Part shown: piece after piece, positions 174 to 29,019 of the stretch | Layout of the letters: each line of letters opens with the position of its first letter | How positions within the stretch are numbered: position 1 is the first letter of the stretch | From: Muribaculaceae bacterium | GTDB taxonomy: Bacteria; Bacteroidota; Bacteroidia; Bacteroidales; Muribaculaceae | Direction: 5' to 3' | DNA: 32,907 bases | Assembly: GCA_016290765.1 (NCBI GenBank) | Contig: JAEEVE010000007.1 | Span: forward strand, 1 to 32,907 | Notes under the pieces: model-generated | What the model was told of the DNA's origin: nothing | The model's database searches: none | What the model saw: only the letters and a program-made list of their open reading frames with translations | Position numbers and translations under genes: made by a program

Positions 174-2351
174 TTATTGCGGGACGCCCACCAGTGTCAG
201 CTCGGCCAGCTGGAAGACGTAATAGGTGTTGTTCCAGAGATCACGGCCGCCAATCTCGATGACCTCGAAGCGGTAGTACTTGTACGCCTTCGTCACGTCG
301 TTGAACTCGAAGGTATAGTCAGTGTTGTTGTATCTACCCAGCCCGGAACCGTCGCTCACATGAGCCAGTTCGGTCCACGACTCGCTCTCGCTGTTACGGC
401 CATAGATCTTCCAGTTCTTCGGGTTGCGGGTATAGAACGAGTAGGTGTCGTCACCTGTGGTCAAGATGTAACTGGTGGGTCTGAAGGCGACATCGCACTG
501 GAGGTCAATGCTGATGGTTTCCCATGCCCCAGAGCGATTCTCCACGCACCACTTGGTGCTTCGGTTGCCGTCCACCAGCTTGGCATACCCTTGGTCGCCA
601 TCATTATCCAGGCCGTTGTGTGGGATGTTATAGCCGATGGCCGTAAGCGACTGAGCCGTGGGGTCAACCTCCGGTGGCGTGACCGGCTGCGTCTTGCCCA
701 AGATGATGTTGATGACGGCGTTCACATCGCTGACGTCGATATTTTCGTCACCTGTTATGTCGCCTACATCGGTCTGCGTTGCCTTGCCCAGTATCATGTT
801 GATGATGGCGTTCACATCGCTGACATCGACTGAACCTTCACCCGTCACATCGCCCTGGATGGGTGGCATCGGAGGATCTACCTGCTTGCCACGAAGCGTC
901 AGCTCGGCCAGTTGGAAAATGTAATTGCCATTCGCGTCTGCGCCATTGATCTGCCGCACCTCAAAGCGGAAGTATCGATAGCCTTCGGTAAGGCCTGTGA
1001 TATCAAATGAGAAGTCGGTGGCGGACTGAGCGCCCAAACCGGCTTGCTCGCCATCGGTTACATGCACCACCTCCGTCCAGTCGTCATCGTCAAAAGTCTT
1101 GCCATAGAGGACCCACTCCTTGGGGTTGCGTTCGGGGCGAGGCCCGGTATCGTTGCCCGTCGTAAAGGTGTAGCCCTTGGGGATGAACCATATATCGCTT
1201 TCAAACTCCAGCCAGATGGTCTCCCAGGCCCCAGAGTCGTTCACAACACACCACTTGGTGGACTTGTTCTGGTCAATCAACTTGGCATATCCTTGATCGC
1301 CCGTATTGCTCAAGGTGTTGTGGGGAACATGAAAATCGGTTGATGTGAGTGTCGGCTCAACGTGGATTTCTGGGGGATCCACATACGTGCCTATAAACTG
1401 CAACTCGGCCAGTTGGAAAATGTAGTTGTTATTTGGGGCTTGACCATTGATTTGCCGCACCTCAAAGCGGAAGTAGCGATAGCCCTCGGTAAGGCCCGTG
1501 ATATCAAATGAGTAGTCGGTGGTGTTTTGGGTACCTAGGCCGGCTTGCTCGCCATCGGTCACATGCACCAACTCCGTCCAGTCGTCATCTTCAAGAGTCT
1601 TGCCATAAATGACCCACTCCTTGGGGTTGCGCTCGGGGTGCTCCTTGGTGTCGTTGCCTGTCGTTAAGATATAACCGTTGGGGGTGAACCACAGTTCGGT
1701 CTCGAAGTCCAGCCAAATGGTCTCCCACTGCCCGGAGTTGTTCTCCACACACCACTTGGAGCCCTTGTACTGGTCAATCAAATTGGCATACCCCTCATTG
1801 CCCGTATTGCTCAAGGTGTTGTGGGGGATGTGGAAATCATTGGGAGAAATCGTGAAGTAAGGGGTGGTGACAAGTGGCGTAGTCTCTACCTCAACCGCCG
1901 TGTAGCTGCTTTCCCCAGGCTGATTCATAGTCGTCATATTACCATCATTACTTATGTAGCCAACGTAATATTTGTATGTTTTATACCAAAAGTAGATATA
2001 GAAACTGCCATCGCTGTTCCATTCAATATGGTTAAGGTAAGGCGCACCATAGATATCGTTCATGTCGCCTAAAACCATGTAGCGCTGGCGTCCACGGTTG
2101 TAAATAATAACATTGGAGCTGTCCGCCTCGTCGCCTACAAAGCAGAACAAGTAAGTGTCATCAGTTGACGGGGACGATGAGGTCGTGAAACGGTTAGTGG
2201 ACGATTCGTAGTACAGATAGTTGTTGTTTTGAGTTTTGATCTGATACCATTTGGTTGTCGGTAAAGTCGGATGATGAGTCACCTCGACCGGCAACGACCA
2301 TGCGCTTGCTGCCATCAGCAGCATCGCCAAGAGGGATAAAAACTTTTTCAT
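174..2351 (-). CDS. Secreted protein with three F5/8C (discoidin-like) repeats and an internal dockerin type I doublet
   Basis: ORF 725 aa; signal peptide MKKFLSLLAMLLMAASAWS; three repeats of 'ERNPKEWVIYGK...YRYFRFEVRQING...YIFQLAEL'; doublet GDVTGEGSVDVSDVNAIINMILGK / GDITGDENIDVSDVNAVINIILGK between repeats 2 and 3. Confidence 0.85.
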   Translation of the reverse strand: MKKFLSLLAMLLMAASAWSLPVEVTHHPTLPTTKWYQIKTQNNNYLYYESSTNRFTTSSSPSTDDTYLFCFVGDEADSSNVIIYNRGRQRYMVLGDMNDIYGAPYLNHIEWNSDGSFYIYFWYKTYKYYVGYISNDGNMTTMNQPGESSYTAVEVETTPLVTTPYFTISPNDFHIPHNTLSNTGNEGYANLIDQYKGSKWCVENNSGQWETIWLDFETELWFTPNGYILTTGNDTKEHPERNPKEWVIYGKTLEDDDWTELVHVTDGEQAGLGTQNTTDYSFDITGLTEGYRYFRFEVRQINGQAPNNNYIFQLAELQFIGTYVDPPEIHVEPTLTSTDFHVPHNTLSNTGDQGYAKLIDQNKSTKWCVVNDSGAWETIWLEFESDIWFIPKGYTFTTGNDTGPRPERNPKEWVLYGKTFDDDDWTEVVHVTDGEQAGLGAQSATDFSFDITGLTEGYRYFRFEVRQINGADANGNYIFQLAELTLRGKQVDPPMPPIQGDVTGEGSVDVSDVNAIINMILGKATQTDVGDITGDENIDVSDVNAVINIILGKTQPVTPPEVDPTAQSLTAIGYNIPHNGLDNDGDQGYAKLVDGNRSTKWCVENRSGAWETISIDLQCDVAFRPTSYILTTGDDTYSFYTRNPKNWKIYGRNSESESWTELAHVSDGSGLGRYNNTDYTFEFNDVTKAYKYYRFEVIEIGGRDLWNNTYYVFQLAELTLVGVPQ

Positions 2352-2383
2352 ACTTGATGCCTATTATAAAGTTAAATTATTTG

Positions 2384-4012
2384 TCATTTTCCGAGCATGA
2401 TGTTGATGACGGCATTCACATCGGCAATGTCGACATGATTGTCACCCGTCACGTCGCCAGCGGCAGTCGCCGTGGCCTTGCCCAGCATCATGTTGATGAT
2501 GGCATTCACATCGGCAATGTCGACGGTGTTGTCATCGTTTACATCGCCAGGCGTTGCATGATAGGCATGGCCTCTCAACCGCAACTCTGCCAGTTGGAAC
2601 ACATGGTTGCCATTCTCAGTGCCGCATAACTCATCTACCTCAAAACGGAAGTACTTGTATTCTTTGTTGACGCCTTCAAGCCTGAAGTTATACTCAGTCA
2701 TGTTGTTGGTGCCTAGGCCTGCTGCCGCACCATCGGTTACGGTAGCAATGAGTTCCCACTCGTCATCCCATACAGGCAATATTGTAGCATAGAGCTTCCA
2801 TGACTTGGGGTTGCGGTTGGGATGGGCATTGGTGTCATCGCATGTTGTTAATACATAGCCCACTGGCACAAACGATTGGTCGCTCCTGAAGCTGACATAG
2901 AATGGCTGCCATGTCTCCATGGATAGTTGCCATTTGGTGTAGGAATTCTTGTCAAACATTCTCATGAAGTTGCTACCCCCCTCGGCATCGAATGCCGAGT
3001 TGCTGATTGAATAGCCTGTAAATGTCAGGTCAAGTTCCGGCTCCTCGAGTTTGGGAATGACGAAGACCTTCTCGGCCTCAAGTGGCACCATGCCAGTGTA
3101 TTCGATTCTCGCTTTCATGGTGATGGTTTGGTCCACGTCGGTGCGCGCTATGGTGTAAGGGTTAGACACCTGTGTGCCATTGGCAAAGAGCGTGAGTATG
3201 TAAGTCCCGGTACCGACGTAGTCAGCAGTAATGACACACTCGCTTTCACTTTGGGAATAATAGAACTCAATGTAACCGGTATACTCTTGTTGCCCGAGGG
3301 CAGGAATGGTGATGGAACTGTGCTTCACTAAGGGGTCCATGCCGTTAAAACGAACAGTAGCCGTCACATCCAATACCTGGTCAGTATAGGTACGGTTAAT
3401 TCTGTAAGGATTGTTCACGTTCTGCCCGTTCACATTCAGGGTAATCGTGTGTTCTTCGCTGCCACTATAGGCAGCCCTGATCATACAATAACTGTCCAGC
3501 ACTTCAAGGTTTAACGATAGTTCTCCGTTTGGAGTGGGTTTCTCCTCTTGAACTAATGCCTCGATGGCAGTAAACGAATGCATTTTCCAGGCAGGGCTGT
3601 GCAAACCGTTGTCCTCATCATAGTCCAGATAAAACTTGGTCTGCTCGGCATTGAAGCAGATGTAGAACGTGTTGCCACTTCCTTCTTCCACGTAGTTGAT
3701 GTTTGACTGCGACTGGTTGCTGGTCAATAGGTCACCGCCCGCCATGTATTGCCGCTTCGCCTTGTTGAAAATTAATGTCTTGCCCGATGATGTGGAAATG
3801 AAGCACCACAGATAGGCATCGGCAGTCGATGCAGTCGTGCTCGCATCAACGTCGGTCCATTGTCCTTGATGAGCGTAGAGATACATGCCGTTAATCTTCA
3901 GTTGATACCAGTGAATGGGATAGGTCGACTCACTGGGTGTGGTTACAAACGGCAATGCCAAGGCACTTGCTGCCACCAGCAACATCGCTACAAGAGATAG
4001 AAACTTTTTCAT
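2384..4012 (-). CDS. Secreted protein with one discoidin-like domain and a C-terminal dockerin type I doublet
   Basis: Start taken at internal Met (MKKFLSLVAMLLVAASALA) rather than 4045; C-terminus GDVNDDNTVDIADVNAIINMMLGK...GDVTGDNHVDIADVNAVINIMLGK; N-terminal region paralogous to the 174-2351 product (KWYQIK/HWYQLK, YLFCF/YLWCF, RQRYMVLGD/KRQYMAGGD). Confidence 0.85.
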   Translation of the reverse strand: MKKFLSLVAMLLVAASALALPFVTTPSESTYPIHWYQLKINGMYLYAHQGQWTDVDASTTASTADAYLWCFISTSSGKTLIFNKAKRQYMAGGDLLTSNQSQSNINYVEEGSGNTFYICFNAEQTKFYLDYDEDNGLHSPAWKMHSFTAIEALVQEEKPTPNGELSLNLEVLDSYCMIRAAYSGSEEHTITLNVNGQNVNNPYRINRTYTDQVLDVTATVRFNGMDPLVKHSSITIPALGQQEYTGYIEFYYSQSESECVITADYVGTGTYILTLFANGTQVSNPYTIARTDVDQTITMKARIEYTGMVPLEAEKVFVIPKLEEPELDLTFTGYSISNSAFDAEGGSNFMRMFDKNSYTKWQLSMETWQPFYVSFRSDQSFVPVGYVLTTCDDTNAHPNRNPKSWKLYATILPVWDDEWELIATVTDGAAAGLGTNNMTEYNFRLEGVNKEYKYFRFEVDELCGTENGNHVFQLAELRLRGHAYHATPGDVNDDNTVDIADVNAIINMMLGKATATAAGDVTGDNHVDIADVNAVINIMLGK

Positions 4013-4063
4013 GCTTGGAATGATATTTGAGCTACATTTAAACAATAATTACCAATTTGGCTG

Positions 4064-4095
4064 CAAAAATAAAATAATTGGGCCTGATTGCCAAA
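4064..4095 (-). promoter_or_regulatory. Bacteroidetes-type promoter for the dockerin gene pair
   Basis: On the minus strand TTTG (4095-4092), 20 nt, TAttTTTG (4071-4064); matches the known -33/-7 consensus TTTG-N19-21-TAnnTTTG. Confidence 0.65.
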
Positions 4096-4112
4096 AGATT
4101 GTTTAAAAAGTT

Positions 4113-4179
4113 GGTTACACTTTTGTCTTTTGTAACCAAATAAACAAAAGTGCAACCACGTTGACAAAAGTGCAACCAC
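4113..4179. promoter_or_regulatory. Operator-like repeat cluster between divergent promoters
   Basis: ACAAAAGTGCAACCAC at 4144-4159 and 4164-4179 (20-bp period); inverted partner GGTTACACTTTTGTC at 4113-4127 (one mismatch to the inverse of 4163-4177); GGTTACA/TGTAACC inverted repeat 4113-4119/4131-4137. Confidence 0.6.
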
Positions 4180-4199
4180 TGCATTTTTTGCGCTAAAGC

Positions 4200-4231
4200 T
4201 TTGTCAGTGTGCCGAAAAATGCTTACTTTTG
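4200..4231 (+). promoter_or_regulatory. Bacteroidetes-type promoter for the AraC-family gene
   Basis: TTTG 4200-4203, 20 nt, TActTTTG 4224-4231. Confidence 0.65.
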
Positions 4232-4235
4232 CCGC

Positions 4236-5321
4236 ATGGAACAATTGTATCGCATACTTGATGCATTTTTTGCTCCAGGTATCCTGCTGGGTATTGCGGT
4301 GTGCCTGTTTTTCCTCGCCATACCGCCCAAGCCCGCACTGCGCAACTATCGTGTGGCGCGCTATGTGATGGGCGCGGCCTATCTCTTTTATGCCTTGTGC
4401 ATCTATCTGGAGTATCATGTCCTGGGCATGGGAGGAGATGAATTATCGCGACCAATCATCCTCTCCATTGCTTCGGTCCAGGCTTTCCTGTTTACTTTTA
4501 CCCTCATCACCCTCATCCACCTGAACTTTGTCACTTCTGGCAGATTGTTGCTCGAGCTTGTGCCAATCGTGGTGATGTCGGTGGCTTTGTTTGTCCCATA
4601 CCTTTATGGGAGCGAGTTGGCACAATGGGCGTTCTGGCTGTTTGTGCTGATTTATGTGGGTTTGTTGGCGCGTTATGTGATATTGTTCAGGCGAGAGTAC
4701 CGGCGCTATGAGATGCAGATGGACAATTACTTCTCTGATGAGGATGCCCGTCGCTTGCATTGGGTCAAGCGGTCGTTCTACATCGCGTTGACGATTGGGG
4801 TGTTGGCGCTAGTCTATGCATTGATGCCTGTCGCGCCCGTGGCATCGGTGTTCATGGCTGTTGTTATTGTGTTTTATACCGCCTTCGGGGTGCGGTTTAT
4901 CAACTATGCGTTGCATTTCCCGGCTATAGAGACTGCCATCACCGCCGACGATGATGTGGAACTGAGCGACCCCCAAGCCGATGATCTGGTAATGATGAAG
5001 CGCATTGATGACCTGATGAATCAGGAAAAACTGTATCGCCGACTTGACCTGTCGGTCGGTGACATCGCCGAGCGGCTTGACGAGAAGCCCAGGGTGGTTT
5101 CGTCGGTGATAAGGGCATGTCGGCAGATGAACTTCAAAACCTATATCAACGAGTTTAGAGTGCAAGAGGCCAAGCGCCTGTTTGACGAGGACAAAGAGAA
5201 CACCCGCACCATCGAAGCCATCTCGGTGGAGGCGGGGTTTGCCAACCGCAGCAGTTTCTACCGTGTGTTCAAGAGTTCACAAGGCATTTCACCCACCGAC
5301 TACCGACTGGCCACAAAATGA
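4236..5321 (+). CDS. Membrane-anchored AraC-family transcriptional regulator
   Basis: Several hydrophobic helices in the N-terminal ~230 aa, then AraC HTH (TIEAISVEAGFANRSSFYRVFKSSQGISPTDYR). Confidence 0.85.
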   Translation: MEQLYRILDAFFAPGILLGIAVCLFFLAIPPKPALRNYRVARYVMGAAYLFYALCIYLEYHVLGMGGDELSRPIILSIASVQAFLFTFTLITLIHLNFVTSGRLLLELVPIVVMSVALFVPYLYGSELAQWAFWLFVLIYVGLLARYVILFRREYRRYEMQMDNYFSDEDARRLHWVKRSFYIALTIGVLALVYALMPVAPVASVFMAVVIVFYTAFGVRFINYALHFPAIETAITADDDVELSDPQADDLVMMKRIDDLMNQEKLYRRLDLSVGDIAERLDEKPRVVSSVIRACRQMNFKTYINEFRVQEAKRLFDEDKENTRTIEAISVEAGFANRSSFYRVFKSSQGISPTDYRLATK

Positions 5322-5346: not shown

Positions 5347-6435
5347 TTATTTATCTAGGGTTTCATCAAACAGTGTGGGTTCGGTGGGTTGGGGCTGAGC
5401 GAACTCGTCGCGTGGTGGGTGGCTCACTGTCAGTCCTAGCAGACGGATGGGACGGCCTGTGAAATCGACCTCGCGCAGCAGCTGCTTGGCCATGGGCAGG
5501 ATTTGTTCCTTGGTGCGCAGCACCTGGCTTTGCGTCAGGCTGCGCGTGATTTGCACAAAGTCGTGGTACTTAACCTTCAACGTCAGTGTCGTGCCCTCAA
5601 AACCGCTACGCTCCAATCGTCTCAACAGTTCACCAACAATGTGGTTCAACTCGATGATGACCTGTGTCTGAGTGGTTAGGTCGTGGGCATAGGTGAGCTC
5701 GCAGCCGGCGCTCTTACGCACCCATTGGGTCACTACCGGGCGCTCGTCGATGCCGCGGGCAAAGTTGTAGAACACGCCACCCATCTTGCCAAAGTGCGCT
5801 GTGAGCAGGCTCAGCGGCTTTTGGCGCAGGTCGGCACCGGTGTGGATGCCCAGGGCATGCATGCGGGCTGCTGTCTTCTTGCCCACGCCCCAGAACTGCT
5901 CAATCTTGAGCCCGGCAATGAAGTCGAGGGCGCGGTCGGGATGCACCGTGCACAGTCCGTCGGGCTTGCGGTAGTCGCTCGCCACCTTGGCCAGAAACTT
6001 GCAATAGCTCACGCCCGCCGAGGCCGTGAGCCGCGTCTGCTCCTTGATGCGCCGCTTGATATCGCGGGCAATGTCCACTGCCAGCTCAATGCCAGGCTTG
6101 TTGTCGGTCACGTCCAGGTAAGCCTCGTCTAGGCTCAGCGGCTCGATGAGGTCGGTGTAGTCGCTGAAGATGTCGCGAATCTGCATTGACACCGCCTTGT
6201 ACTTCTCAAAGTGTGGCTCCACGACCACCAGGTTGGGGCACAGTCGGTGGGCCATGCGGATGCTTTGTGCCGAGTGAACGCCATAGCGCCGAGCCACATA
6301 GTTGGCCGTCGATACCACGCCGCGCTCGCCGTCGTGGCCCACGGCCACCGGCAAGCCCACCAGCGACGGATTGTCCCGCTCCTCGACCGAGACAAAGAAC
6401 GCGTCCATATCGACATGAATGATTTTTCGCATCAC
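5347..6435 (-). CDS. dinB: DNA polymerase IV (Y-family)
   Basis: MRKIIHVDMDAFFVSVEERDNPSL; LSLDEAYLDVTD; ASAGVSYCKFLAKVASDYRKPDG; FWGVGKKTAARMHALGI. Confidence 0.95.
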   Translation of the reverse strand: MMRKIIHVDMDAFFVSVEERDNPSLVGLPVAVGHDGERGVVSTANYVARRYGVHSAQSIRMAHRLCPNLVVVEPHFEKYKAVSMQIRDIFSDYTDLIEPLSLDEAYLDVTDNKPGIELAVDIARDIKRRIKEQTRLTASAGVSYCKFLAKVASDYRKPDGLCTVHPDRALDFIAGLKIEQFWGVGKKTAARMHALGIHTGADLRQKPLSLLTAHFGKMGGVFYNFARGIDERPVVTQWVRKSAGCELTYAHDLTTQTQVIIELNHIVGELLRRLERSGFEGTTLTLKVKYHDFVQITRSLTQSQVLRTKEQILPMAKQLLREVDFTGRPIRLLGLTVSHPPRDEFAQPQPTEPTLFDETLDK

Positions 6436-24639: not shown

Positions 24640-27600
24640 ATGAAAAAATTACTCACTCTCATCTTCGCCCTGGTGGCGGTCATGGCCGGCGCGTTCGACA
24701 ACGGTGACTTCACCTACACCATCATGAGCGACGGCACGGCGCGCATCGACGGCTTCAAGAGCAGCTACACCGGCACGCCCACGACCCTCACCATTCCGGG
24801 CTATGTCTACGACTCGGGCACGCAGAAGTACTACCAGGTGAAGACCATCCAGAACAGTGCTTTCAGCAACAATAAGACTAGGAGCCTGACGAAAGTCACC
24901 ATCCAGTATGGTGTGGAGGACATTTACTCGTACGCCTTCGCCGATTGCTCCAGCTTGACGACCGTCTATCTGCCCAGCAGCATCAAGGGCCTCGCTAATC
25001 GTGTGTTCAACAACACGCCATTGACCTATGTCAACTGCGCCGCCGAGGTCATGCCCTCCATCACTGAATATGGGCTTGCCGGCATCACCAGCGACGTCAA
25101 CTCCCGCACTTGGAGCTGCGCCACGCCCGACGGTCAGGCCGCCGCCAACGAAGTAGACCGCATCACCAGCAACTTCACCACGGGCTGGAACCCCAGCTCG
25201 GCCGACCTCACCGAATTGACTTTCGGCAGCAGTTCGGCTGGCACCCTGTGCAACGTGTACCTGAACATCACCGAGGGTTGGAACCCGTCGACACAGGACT
25301 ATGGCAAGGCCAAGCTGCTGTGTGCTACCGCCAACTCGTCCAACACCACGGGCACGCTCAAGTTTGACTACAACCAGAGTGTGCTCCAGGGCATGGCGCA
25401 CTTCTACGTCACCGAGATTGACAAGTCGTTCCGTCTCCACGGCTCGAGCATCAAGATCCTCGACATGAGCCAGACCAGCAAGGTGGAGAAGATCGGTGCC
25501 CAGGCCTTCTACAACTGCACGAACCTCACGCAGGCCAAGGTCACCGCCAAGGTCATCGAGGGCGGCGCTTTCAACTACTGCACCAACCTGTCGAGCGTGC
25601 AGCTGTACGGCACCAGCGAGAGCAACTGCGTGCAGTCGCTGGGGACGTTCGCGTTCGCCCGTACCAAGGTGTCGAGCATTTACATCCCCGCCGGGCTCAC
25701 CAGCTACGGCGCCGGCGCCTTCGCCTACTGCACCAACCTGTCGAGCATCAGCGTGTCGAGCAGCAACAACACCTTCGCGACCCACGCTGCCACGCCGGGC
25801 TGCCTCTACAACAAGGCCAAGACCATCCTCTACCAGGCCGCTGGCAAGTTTGGCGACCTCTACTTTGGCAACAACGCCCCCGACGCGCTCACCAACATCA
25901 CGACCTATGCCTTTGCTGGCAACACGGGCATGGTCTCGCTCGATGTGCCGTACGGCGTGAAGACCATCGGCTCCTACGCTTTTACCGAGATGCCCAACCT
26001 GATCTCGTTGTCCATTCCCAGTTCGGTGACCTCGTTCGTTTCCAACTCGTTCTATAACCTGAAGGCGCTGACTCTGTTCTCGTTCAACCACGCCACCATC
26101 CCCAGCTCCCTGAACGGCTCCAACACCTTCTACGGCATCAAGAGCGGCTGCAAGCTCAAGGTTCCCAAGTGGCGCACGGCGTACTATCGGAACAGCGTGT
26201 GGAACTCGGCCTTCAGCGGCGGCATCAGCGAGGGGTCGTGTGACTTCTACGGCTACTATAGTGATAACATGTTCTACTACACCGTCACCAGCACCGCCAG
26301 CTACACCGACGACTTGGTGGAACCTGCGACAACCGATGGACAGCTCAAGCTCGTCAACGGAGGCTATGGTTTCGACACGACAAGAGTTGAGCTCATTTTG
26401 CCTGATGTGGTGACGCACCGTGGCAAGACCTACACCGTCACCGAGATAGAGCGTGAGACCTTCCGCAGCGATCATATCTCGATCAAAAAGGTCAGTGGCG
26501 GTGCTGGCATCAAGAAGATTGGCGCCTTGGCATTCGCCGGCGATATTCTCAATGATGAATTGTCATGGTCTGGCCATAGCCTCAGTGGTTTCAATATCCC
26601 CAACCCCGTGGAGTTTGGCGACTCGATGTGTATGGGCTGCTATATGAGAGATGCCTCTCTCAAGATAGGCGAACGTCTGGAGCGTATCGGTGTGCGTGCG
26701 TTCTCTAAATGTTTTCATGGTAACTATCTTATTTACTACATTCGCGAGATCACTCTGCCCGAGACCTTGACCGAGATTGGAGATTACGCATTCGATAATT
26801 GCGGTAGGATCAATTATTATATTACCAGCACCCAAAGGGTCACCATTGGCCAGAATATGTTTTTTCCCGGAGTAGCTAAAAATCGGGATATTTATGGCGT
26901 GATATATGCTCCGTTGGACCAGTATCTGGACATTAGCCGCCAGACACAGTCCTGGATAAACAATACCGAATGGCACCAAACCCTGCGAGCCTTATACAAG
27001 CCAAAGACTAGATGGTCGTTGATTTCGGTGCCCGATAGCAGGAATCTCAAAATGCCCGATGATCATTGCTATGTAGTCACAGGATATAACAAGTCTGAGA
27101 GTACATTTAGTTTTGCACCTTTGGGCGAGAATGTCATCCTTCCTGGTTTTACGGGAATTTTGTTCAAAGGAACACCCGGCAATATATATAAATTCGAGCC
27201 TTCTGGTCTGAATGTTGCCAATCTGCCGAATGACTATCTCGTTGCCCCGCAAGGTGATGCCCAGTATTTTAGCTCCAGTCAAGGCAATGGATTGGTCTAT
27301 GTCTATGACGGAGCCTCTGAAATGTTTAATTTGCAGGATGCGACCATCTATAGCGGTGGAGCGGTGCTTCGCATTCCACAGTCAGTATTCGGCACCGACA
27401 CGCCGCCCGTCAATGTGGACTGTGGCATTGATTTTTTACCATCTGTCTATATCAATGGTGTGAAAGTGACCGCAGCCAATGCTAGCGACCTGAGTGTAAT
27501 CGATGGCGTCTCGGGAGGATTGTCGTTCGATTTTGCGACCAATACTTTGAAGATGAACAATGCCACCATCACATGTGAGAATAATAACTGCATTGAAATC

Positions 27601-29019
27601 TATTCTGATGACATTATCATTGACCTTCAGGGCGTTAACACACTTAACAGAGGAGAGGGGGATACCACCTACGCCAATGCAGCATTCTTCAGTTATGGTA
27701 GTTCTGAAAAGAATTACTCATTAACCATCCGCAATACGGGAACCCTCAACGTGAACAGTCCAACATGGAGTGGCTTTAGACAGTACTATGGCACCCTTAT
27801 CGTCAAAGATGGCGCTCAGGTTCATCTGAATGGAAAGTATGGACTAGAGGGAGGACAGGCTGGACGAAATACACTGTTGATGCGTGGAGACAACACCAAG
27901 TTGGTTACCAATGGAACAAGCGCTTCACTCCGCGATTTTAACACGATCTACTTGCTCGACGGCCTGGCCATCACCCAGCCGGCAGGAGCACATCTGGTCG
28001 CAGATACAATCCATCAGAACACTTATGATATTATTCTATCCTCTTTGCGGGATGCCGACGGCAATACCATCAGTAACCAGGATGTGGTCATCTGCAAGCC
28101 CGCCACCTCGCAGTACCGCGTGGGTGACATCAATGCCGACAACAAGGTCGATGTGAGCGACGTGAACATCGTCATCAACATCATGCTCGGCAAGGCACAG
28201 GCCAGCAGTTATCCGGGCCACGCCGATGTTACTGGCGATGGCCGTGTTGACGTGAGCGACGTGAACATGATTATCAACATCATGCTGGGCAAACTCACGC
28301 CCGAAGTGCCCGAAGAAGAAATACTGGCACAAACCTTCACCGTGGGTGGCGTGTCGTTCAAGATGGCAAAGGTCAAGGGCGGTACATTCACCATGGGTGC
28401 CACCAGCGAACAAGCCGGCGAAGCCCAGAGCAACGAGTCTCCCGCGCATAGTGTGACCTTGAGCGACTACTTCATTGGCGAGACCGAGGTCACCCAGGAA
28501 CTCTGGCAGGCAGTGATGGGCAGCAATCCCAGCCAGTATATAGGCATAAATCGCCCCGTTGACTATGTCAGCTGGAACGACTGTCAGACGTTCATCACCA
28601 AACTGAACCAGATGACGGGCAAGACGTTCCGCCTGCCCACCGAGGCCGAGTGGGAGTATGCCGCCCGTGGCGGGGACAAGAGCCAGGGCAACAAATATAG
28701 CGGTATTCTCAACGATGTCACGAATGTGGCATGGTATATTGACAACAGTAATAGTAAGACTCATGTGGTCGGCAAGAAAATTCCTAACGAGTTGGGCTTG
28801 TACGACATGAGCGGCAACGTGTGGGAATGGTGCAGCGACTGGTATGGCAGCTACAGCAGCAGCGCCCAGACCAATCCCACCGGTCCCGCATCGGGCTCCT
28901 ATAAGGTGGCTCGTGGTGGCAACAGCCTAGGCGAAGCCACCACCTGCCGTGTCTCACGCCGTCAAGTCTTCACTACCACAGCCCATGGCCTCATCGGCCT
29001 CCGCCTTGTCATAGATTAG
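24640..29019 (+). CDS. Large secreted protein: BspA-type leucine-rich repeats, beta-helix-like region, internal dockerin doublet, C-terminal FGE/SUMF1-like domain
   Basis: Signal peptide MKKLLTLIFALVAVMAGA; LRR_5-like repeats (KIGAQAFYNCTNLTQAKV, TIGSYAFTEMPNLISLSIPSSV); GDINADNKVDVSDVNIVINIMLGK...GDGRVDVSDVNMIINIMLGK; VKGGTFTMGAT...TEVTQELWQAVMGSNPS...RLPTEAEWEYAARGG...GNVWEWCSDW. Confidence 0.9.
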   Translation: MKKLLTLIFALVAVMAGAFDNGDFTYTIMSDGTARIDGFKSSYTGTPTTLTIPGYVYDSGTQKYYQVKTIQNSAFSNNKTRSLTKVTIQYGVEDIYSYAFADCSSLTTVYLPSSIKGLANRVFNNTPLTYVNCAAEVMPSITEYGLAGITSDVNSRTWSCATPDGQAAANEVDRITSNFTTGWNPSSADLTELTFGSSSAGTLCNVYLNITEGWNPSTQDYGKAKLLCATANSSNTTGTLKFDYNQSVLQGMAHFYVTEIDKSFRLHGSSIKILDMSQTSKVEKIGAQAFYNCTNLTQAKVTAKVIEGGAFNYCTNLSSVQLYGTSESNCVQSLGTFAFARTKVSSIYIPAGLTSYGAGAFAYCTNLSSISVSSSNNTFATHAATPGCLYNKAKTILYQAAGKFGDLYFGNNAPDALTNITTYAFAGNTGMVSLDVPYGVKTIGSYAFTEMPNLISLSIPSSVTSFVSNSFYNLKALTLFSFNHATIPSSLNGSNTFYGIKSGCKLKVPKWRTAYYRNSVWNSAFSGGISEGSCDFYGYYSDNMFYYTVTSTASYTDDLVEPATTDGQLKLVNGGYGFDTTRVELILPDVVTHRGKTYTVTEIERETFRSDHISIKKVSGGAGIKKIGALAFAGDILNDELSWSGHSLSGFNIPNPVEFGDSMCMGCYMRDASLKIGERLERIGVRAFSKCFHGNYLIYYIREITLPETLTEIGDYAFDNCGRINYYITSTQRVTIGQNMFFPGVAKNRDIYGVIYAPLDQYLDISRQTQSWINNTEWHQTLRALYKPKTRWSLISVPDSRNLKMPDDHCYVVTGYNKSESTFSFAPLGENVILPGFTGILFKGTPGNIYKFEPSGLNVANLPNDYLVAPQGDAQYFSSSQGNGLVYVYDGASEMFNLQDATIYSGGAVLRIPQSVFGTDTPPVNVDCGIDFLPSVYINGVKVTAANASDLSVIDGVSGGLSFDFATNTLKMNNATITCENNNCIEIYSDDIIIDLQGVNTLNRGEGDTTYANAAFFSYGSSEKNYSLTIRNTGTLNVNSPTWSGFRQYYGTLIVKDGAQVHLNGKYGLEGGQAGRNTLLMRGDNTKLVTNGTSASLRDFNTIYLLDGLAITQPAGAHLVADTIHQNTYDIILSSLRDADGNTISNQDVVICKPATSQYRVGDINADNKVDVSDVNIVINIMLGKAQASSYPGHADVTGDGRVDVSDVNMIINIMLGKLTPEVPEEEILAQTFTVGGVSFKMAKVKGGTFTMGATSEQAGEAQSNESPAHSVTLSDYFIGETEVTQELWQAVMGSNPSQYIGINRPVDYVSWNDCQTFITKLNQMTGKTFRLPTEAEWEYAARGGDKSQGNKYSGILNDVTNVAWYIDNSNSKTHVVGKKIPNELGLYDMSGNVWEWCSDWYGSYSSSAQTNPTGPASGSYKVARGGNSLGEATTCRVSRRQVFTTTAHGLIGLRLVID

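Follow-up and report, generated by a model that had tools for sequence, protein, structure and literature searches.

The DNA analysed here, called the window throughout, is a 32.9-kb stretch from the MAG of an uncultured Bacteroidales (83.5% complete, 5% contamination); the related MAGs come from the rumen and bear the labels Prevotellaceae, Muribaculaceae or Bacteroidales. Two promoters point away from each other in it, one towards a pair of dockerin genes and the other towards the gene of a membrane AraC-type regulator, and the space between them, from 4111 to 4179, holds an array of one inverted and three direct half-sites (Table 1). The promoter-proximal dockerin gene is predicted to be the first of the target operon, and the second, which lies 32 bp 3' of it, is probably co-transcribed. 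Beyond the regulator, the window has a DinB-like polymerase gene (5347-6435), and the relatives G049, G041 and G104 have at that place a gene that by eye is UvrA-like (L074 from 6547, L176 from 6776 and L178 1-2682, respectively). Another dockerin protein is encoded at 24640-29019, a 1459-aa chain that combines BspA-type LRR, dockerin and FGE-sulfatase domains; the promoter of this gene has no copy of the half-site. Although dockerin proteins are many in this MAG (in the window, 174-4012 and 24640-29019), it gave no match to cohesin (PF00963), a domain that was matched above cut-off in 14 of 31 genomes of the genus.

Table 1. Genes, promoters and half-sites at the divergent locus (window coordinates)
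Feature	Position	Strand	Sequence or basis
Second secreted dockerin protein; also carries F5/8 type C	174..2351	-	
Secreted LPF-WYQLK family protein, C-terminal dockerin type I	2384..4012	-	Pfam Dockerin_1
Dockerin-operon promoter, Bacteroidota type	4064..4095	-	TTTG, N20, -7 box TATTTTTG (4071-4064)
Half-site A	4111..4126	-	ACAAAAGTGTAACCAA; inverted, nearest to the dockerin promoter and facing it
Half-site B	4131..4139	+	TGTAACCAA; forms a palindrome with A; degenerate in its 5' part
Half-site C	4144..4159	+	ACAAAAGTGCAACCAC, exact, direct
Half-site D	4164..4179	+	ACAAAAGTGCAACCAC, exact, direct; faces the regulator promoter
Regulator promoter, Bacteroidota type	4200..4231	+	TTTG (4200-4203), N20, -7 box TACTTTTG (4224-4231)
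Membrane AraC-type regulator, 361 aa	4236..5321	+	Pfam HTH_18, hydropathy, AlphaFold2

Both promoters lie where the preliminary description of this DNA had drawn two outward-facing Bacteroidetes promoters; the Bacteroidota consensus used for that of the dockerin operon is a published one (PMC7366714). The -7 box of the regulator promoter ends only 4 nt 5' of the ATG (4236), so that little or no leader is predicted for the regulator mRNA. Across the clade I loci introduced below, this box (mostly TAATTTTGCAACATG) ends 4-7 nt before an ATG or GTG (4224-4238 in the window), and their regulator mRNAs are likewise predicted to be leaderless or almost leaderless. In B. thetaiotaomicron, leaders shorter than 10 nt make up only about 3.7% (PMC7366714).

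The two exact 16-nt repeats 20 bp apart that had been reported between these promoters are half-sites C and D. Their inverted partner also exists, as half-site A, which is a copy of ACAAAAGTGCAACCAC with 2 mismatches, and its limits are those of Table 1 rather than 4113-4127 as first given. The preliminary description had missed half-site B, whose core TGTAACC (4131-4137, plus strand) shares one 20-bp register with C and D and which forms with A the palindrome TTGGTTACA-N11-TGTAACCAA. In general terms the half-site is about 16 bp long, ACAAAAGTGYAACCA, and is repeated every 20-22 bp. When ACAAAAGTGCAACCAC was searched at up to 3 mismatches, the whole window gave 3 matches against 0.33 expected, all within a single 70-bp stretch, and none of 100 shuffles reached 3 matches. 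An Rfam scan of 3900-4400 returned no family at gathering score, with chance sub-threshold matches to miRNA/sRNA families alone.

Hydropathy and AlphaFold2 predict seven transmembrane helices within residues 2-225 of the regulator; in the model (mean pLDDT 79.8) these seven long N-terminal helices are followed by a linker, flexible or disordered at residues 229-243, and by the HTH domain. The C-terminus (residues 278-357; Pfam HTH_18, E 8.2e-14) has the tandem double HTH that defines the AraC/XylS family, and its predicted fold resembles AraC-type domains, 3oou and 6swi among them (best E 0.006). The direct repeats of the array are also those of AraC/XylS operators, being spaced by about two helical turns (20-22 bp in nearly all arrays by sequence). 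A Pfam scan of the protein gave HTH families only, and no histidine kinase, receiver or periplasmic sensor domain. The predicted topology would keep the HTH domain in the cytoplasm and the seven-helix part in the membrane. In a fold search the membrane part matched only generic seven-helix bundles, GPCRs and rhodopsins, at a level too weak to indicate homology (TM about 0.3-0.55, E above 0.02).

A profile search of 101 genomes of one rumen Bacteroidales genus retrieved regulator homologues in 30 of them, among which 14 orthologues, 59-70% identical to the window protein, constitute clade I. All 14 have the array upstream, degenerate in places, with one inverted and three direct half-sites arranged as TTGGTTNCA ... 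TGYAACCA - GACAAAAGTGYAACC - GACAAAARTGCAACC in steps of 20-22 bp, although the proximal sites of G041, G046, G123 and G124 are degenerate enough that their recognition rested partly on position. The equivalent of half-site B (TGYAACC) is kept in nearly all of these arrays. Nearly every locus has a dockerin protein as its divergent neighbour; the contigs of G090 and G123 stop too soon for this gene to be read, and in G124 the neighbour has no recognisable dockerin, but the unlinked targets of this genome do carry one. Conservation of the repeats at orthologous loci that retain the same gene pair, on which the preliminary description had made its proposal depend in part, is seen at all 14 loci, with the dockerin neighbour kept in almost all of them.

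Nine further genomes carry regulators of a sister clade, designated clade II and only 26-29% identical (about 27%), with the same layout of inverted and direct sites wherever it is readable, if weakly in G112 and G122. Their half-sites have a different core, CCACAC in place of GCAACC, so that AAAAGTGCAACC becomes AAAAGTCCACAC. Genome-wide pattern searches, allowing at most 1 mismatch and compared with reversed-pattern controls, found the clade I site 39 times in the 14 clade I genomes against 2 control matches (31 against 2 when the window's genome is left out, some of the counted genomes having supplied the motifs). For clade II genomes the two counts were 2 and 4, and for all others 28 and 29. 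The clade II site was found 19 times against 0 in the nine clade II genomes, 1 time against 3 in clade I genomes and 15 against 27 elsewhere. This is a double dissociation, in counts that ignore kinship: genomes of the same genus are non-independent, and orthologous arrays are of common descent. On the protein side, HTH1 differs strongly between the clades and the recognition helix of HTH2 is similar (RSSFYR/RSYFYR), which agrees with a half-site whose AAAAGT part is shared and whose second half is altered; HTH1 would then read the altered half, and HTH2 the shared one. The LPF dockerin family follows the regulators as well, being present in 23 of the 23 genomes with a clade I or II regulator versus 18 of the 78 others (p 6e-12, kinship ignored). 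G094, in which the search for LPF dockerins found none, has a clade II-like regulator with no array upstream.

A natural experiment bears on the partnership of site and protein. G089, which has a clade II regulator only, keeps the window dockerin gene at 91% DNA identity (nuo genes, 86%), and the 2.6 kb that contain the array, the regulator and dinB are replaced there by 185 bp with neither a clade I nor a clade II site, which may reflect a loss or the ancestral state. It could be argued that a different transcription factor binds the half-sites and that the membrane AraC gene is merely one more of its targets, as the own genome holds about 18 further AraC-domain matches (E <= 0.001) and binding of the regulator to the array is putative. 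Array and regulator, however, are absent together from G089, the presence of sites follows the regulator clade in both directions over the 101 genomes, and the core changes along with the clade, all of which makes a foreign factor an unlikely explanation.

The sites are not confined to the regulator locus. In the window's own genome, inverted site pairs precede dockerin-family genes on C25, C138 and C186, and unlinked arrays lie ahead of further secreted-protein genes in G011, G049, G124, G033 and G088. Dockerin_1 was recognised in 9 of the 10 unlinked target proteins tested, in one of the nine at 0.8 bits below the cut-off, and several of them combine the dockerin with LRR_5, F5/8 type C or FGE-sulfatase domains. 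Since sites also precede these unlinked dockerin genes, the window array is one operator of a regulon and not solely a local switch. The own-genome pairs raise the objection that inverted repeats of this kind could act as intrinsic terminators or RNA hairpins instead of operators, for they follow the stop codon of an upstream dockerin gene and can form stems of 15-19 bp (-24 to -29 kcal/mol) followed by a T-rich stretch (L009 1380-1445, L010 about 6350-6400, L011 5720-5770). The window array, by contrast, sits between divergent promoters and not at a gene end, and neither the terminator scan nor Rfam at gathering score detected anything there; moreover, the targets on C16 of G011 and C2 of G124 have direct repeats only, at the same 49-bp position, the former without a stable hairpin and the latter with a separate hairpin and T tract upstream. 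These direct-repeat-only targets contradict a terminator function for the arrays in general, which is therefore regarded as very improbable, while the pairs on C25, C138 and C186 may double as operator and terminator.

Site position relative to the promoters is given as the distance that separates the final C of the site facing the promoter and the final base of the -7 box. In the window this distance is 49 bp on the dockerin side (half-site A, 4113, to the G at 4064), and 20 of the 21 targets of clade I (13 linked and 7 of 8 unlinked) have values of 48-50 bp, the exception being the own-genome target on C186, at 46 bp, whose -7 box is degenerate. In clade II it is 39-40 bp in 11 of 11 targets (7 linked, 4 unlinked), that is, the clade I distance minus one helical turn. 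The spacer itself is 37% identical between loci versus 31% for shuffles, and the sites 82%. A functionless origin of the array, with repeats arisen by chance or copied along with paralogous dockerin promoters, could be suspected from the own genome, where dockerin genes are tandem paralogues with common promoter sequence. Other genomes, however, keep the sites and their spacing around spacers that have diverged to near-random identity, which contradicts this reading, and sites also stand ahead of LRR-dockerin genes of a different type, so that chance or duplication is extremely improbable. Most of these target promoters have no TTTG 20 bp away from their -7 box, and lack of the canonical -33 element is usual for activated promoters. 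A fixed length, a diverged spacer and a difference of one turn between the clades together point to contact with RNA polymerase, and thus to activation.

On the regulator side the spacing is far less uniform. Clade I distances fall at 47-49 or 57-59 bp, at 54 bp in the window (half-site D to the regulator -7 box) and at 132-144 bp, and those of clade II are scattered from 26 to 167 bp. These values bear on the proposal, made in the preliminary description, of an autoregulated divergent switch; in terms of the present half-sites, C and D would repress or activate the regulator gene and A and B would serve the dockerin operon. The operator and its rigid dockerin-side spacing uphold one half of that proposal, and 10 of the 14 loci of clade I do have their last direct site facing the regulator promoter at 47-49 bp, which is the dockerin-side spacing, or at 57-59 bp, one helical turn more. 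Against this, the window copy is half a turn off both classes, two clade I loci have distances of 132 and 144 bp, the values of clade II are scattered, and the unlinked operators of the regulon precede secreted-protein genes only. Because the regulator-side spacing is variable and the dockerin-side spacing rigid, autoregulation is the weaker half and not a fixed feature; judged from these distances, it is likely in part of clade I. The switch as proposed, which is compatible with activation of a dockerin regulon, is given about an even chance.

The array is very probably the landing site through which its neighbour switches on cell-surface or secreted proteins, and we hold with considerable confidence, on the comparative sequence evidence, that it is the operator via which this membrane one-component AraC protein activates a dockerin regulon. 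The model proposes that the cytoplasmic double-HTH domain would bind a number of half-sites along a single face of the DNA, with the seven-helix N-terminus holding the DNA-bound regulator at the membrane. Bound just upstream of the -33 region, the regulator would activate the dockerin operon and, likewise, the unlinked dockerin genes, the trigger presumably being a signal perceived by the membrane module; in many genomes the regulator may also control its own gene through the sites directed at its promoter. A broader proposal, which we put forward tentatively and at somewhat less than even odds, is that these proteins are a novel family of seven-helix one-component membrane receptors whose cytoplasmic AraC domain directly activates dockerin surface-protein regulons, and in which HTH1 and the operator core switched together between lineages while architecture and helical register were kept. 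If so, bacteria would possess in this membrane module a seven-helix receptor with a direct connection to a promoter. Literature searches found nothing on membrane-bound AraC regulators in Bacteroidetes and, for dockerin with AraC, only metagenome or genome papers that appear unrelated by title and abstract; as far as that literature shows, control of these dockerin proteins is undescribed. For the secreted proteins with dockerins in uncultured rumen Bacteroidales, this gives an assignment of regulator, operator and regulon that can be tested, and the 49-bp and 39-40-bp spacings with their two cores offer a natural test set for AraC-type activators at the unusual Bacteroidota promoter, which also bears on the evolution of HTH1 specificity and on the reach of a membrane-held activator to unlinked promoters.

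At araBAD, the half-sites used by AraC are direct repeats that lie upstream of the core promoter and follow one another at about two turns. The array shares this spacing and placement, but its site sequence is another one, and the regulator has no arabinose-binding cupin domain and carries a membrane anchor. The closest precedent is provided by HTCS operators: sixteen AraC-type HTCS regulators of Bacteroides thetaiotaomicron have predicted direct repeats averaging 21 bp (PMC3878776), which makes the likeness to AraC-family tandem sites, drawn at the outset, an apt one. HTCS (PMC3878776; PMC11253607) also have a membrane-anchored AraC/XylS double HTH (HTH_18) with direct repeats two helical turns apart, and the similarity of their motifs tracks the regulator tree. 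Classification as an HTCS is nevertheless ruled out, since the 361 residues comprise seven transmembrane helices and an HTH in a one-component protein lacking the COG3292 periplasmic sensor, the histidine kinase and the receiver; in addition, an inverted site that faces the promoter accompanies the three direct ones in the array, and the targets are dockerin proteins instead of polysaccharide utilisation loci. YSIRK-adjacent AraC regulators of Gram-positive bacteria (NCBIfam TIGR04094) similarly adjoin a secreted or surface-protein gene that they are thought to control, as does the AraC regulator Spy1337 beside the surface-protein gene R28 (PMC7098570). Their N-terminal part is not shared with the regulator described here, which scored 31.4 bits against a cut-off of 200, with the HTH alone matched, and is not a member. 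ToxR and CadC have a winged helix and one transmembrane helix. They likewise join a DNA-binding domain and a membrane sensor in one chain and activate transcription from the membrane (PMC5430869, PMC6320335), but the protein of this locus is set apart from their type by a C-terminal AraC double HTH and about seven transmembrane helices.
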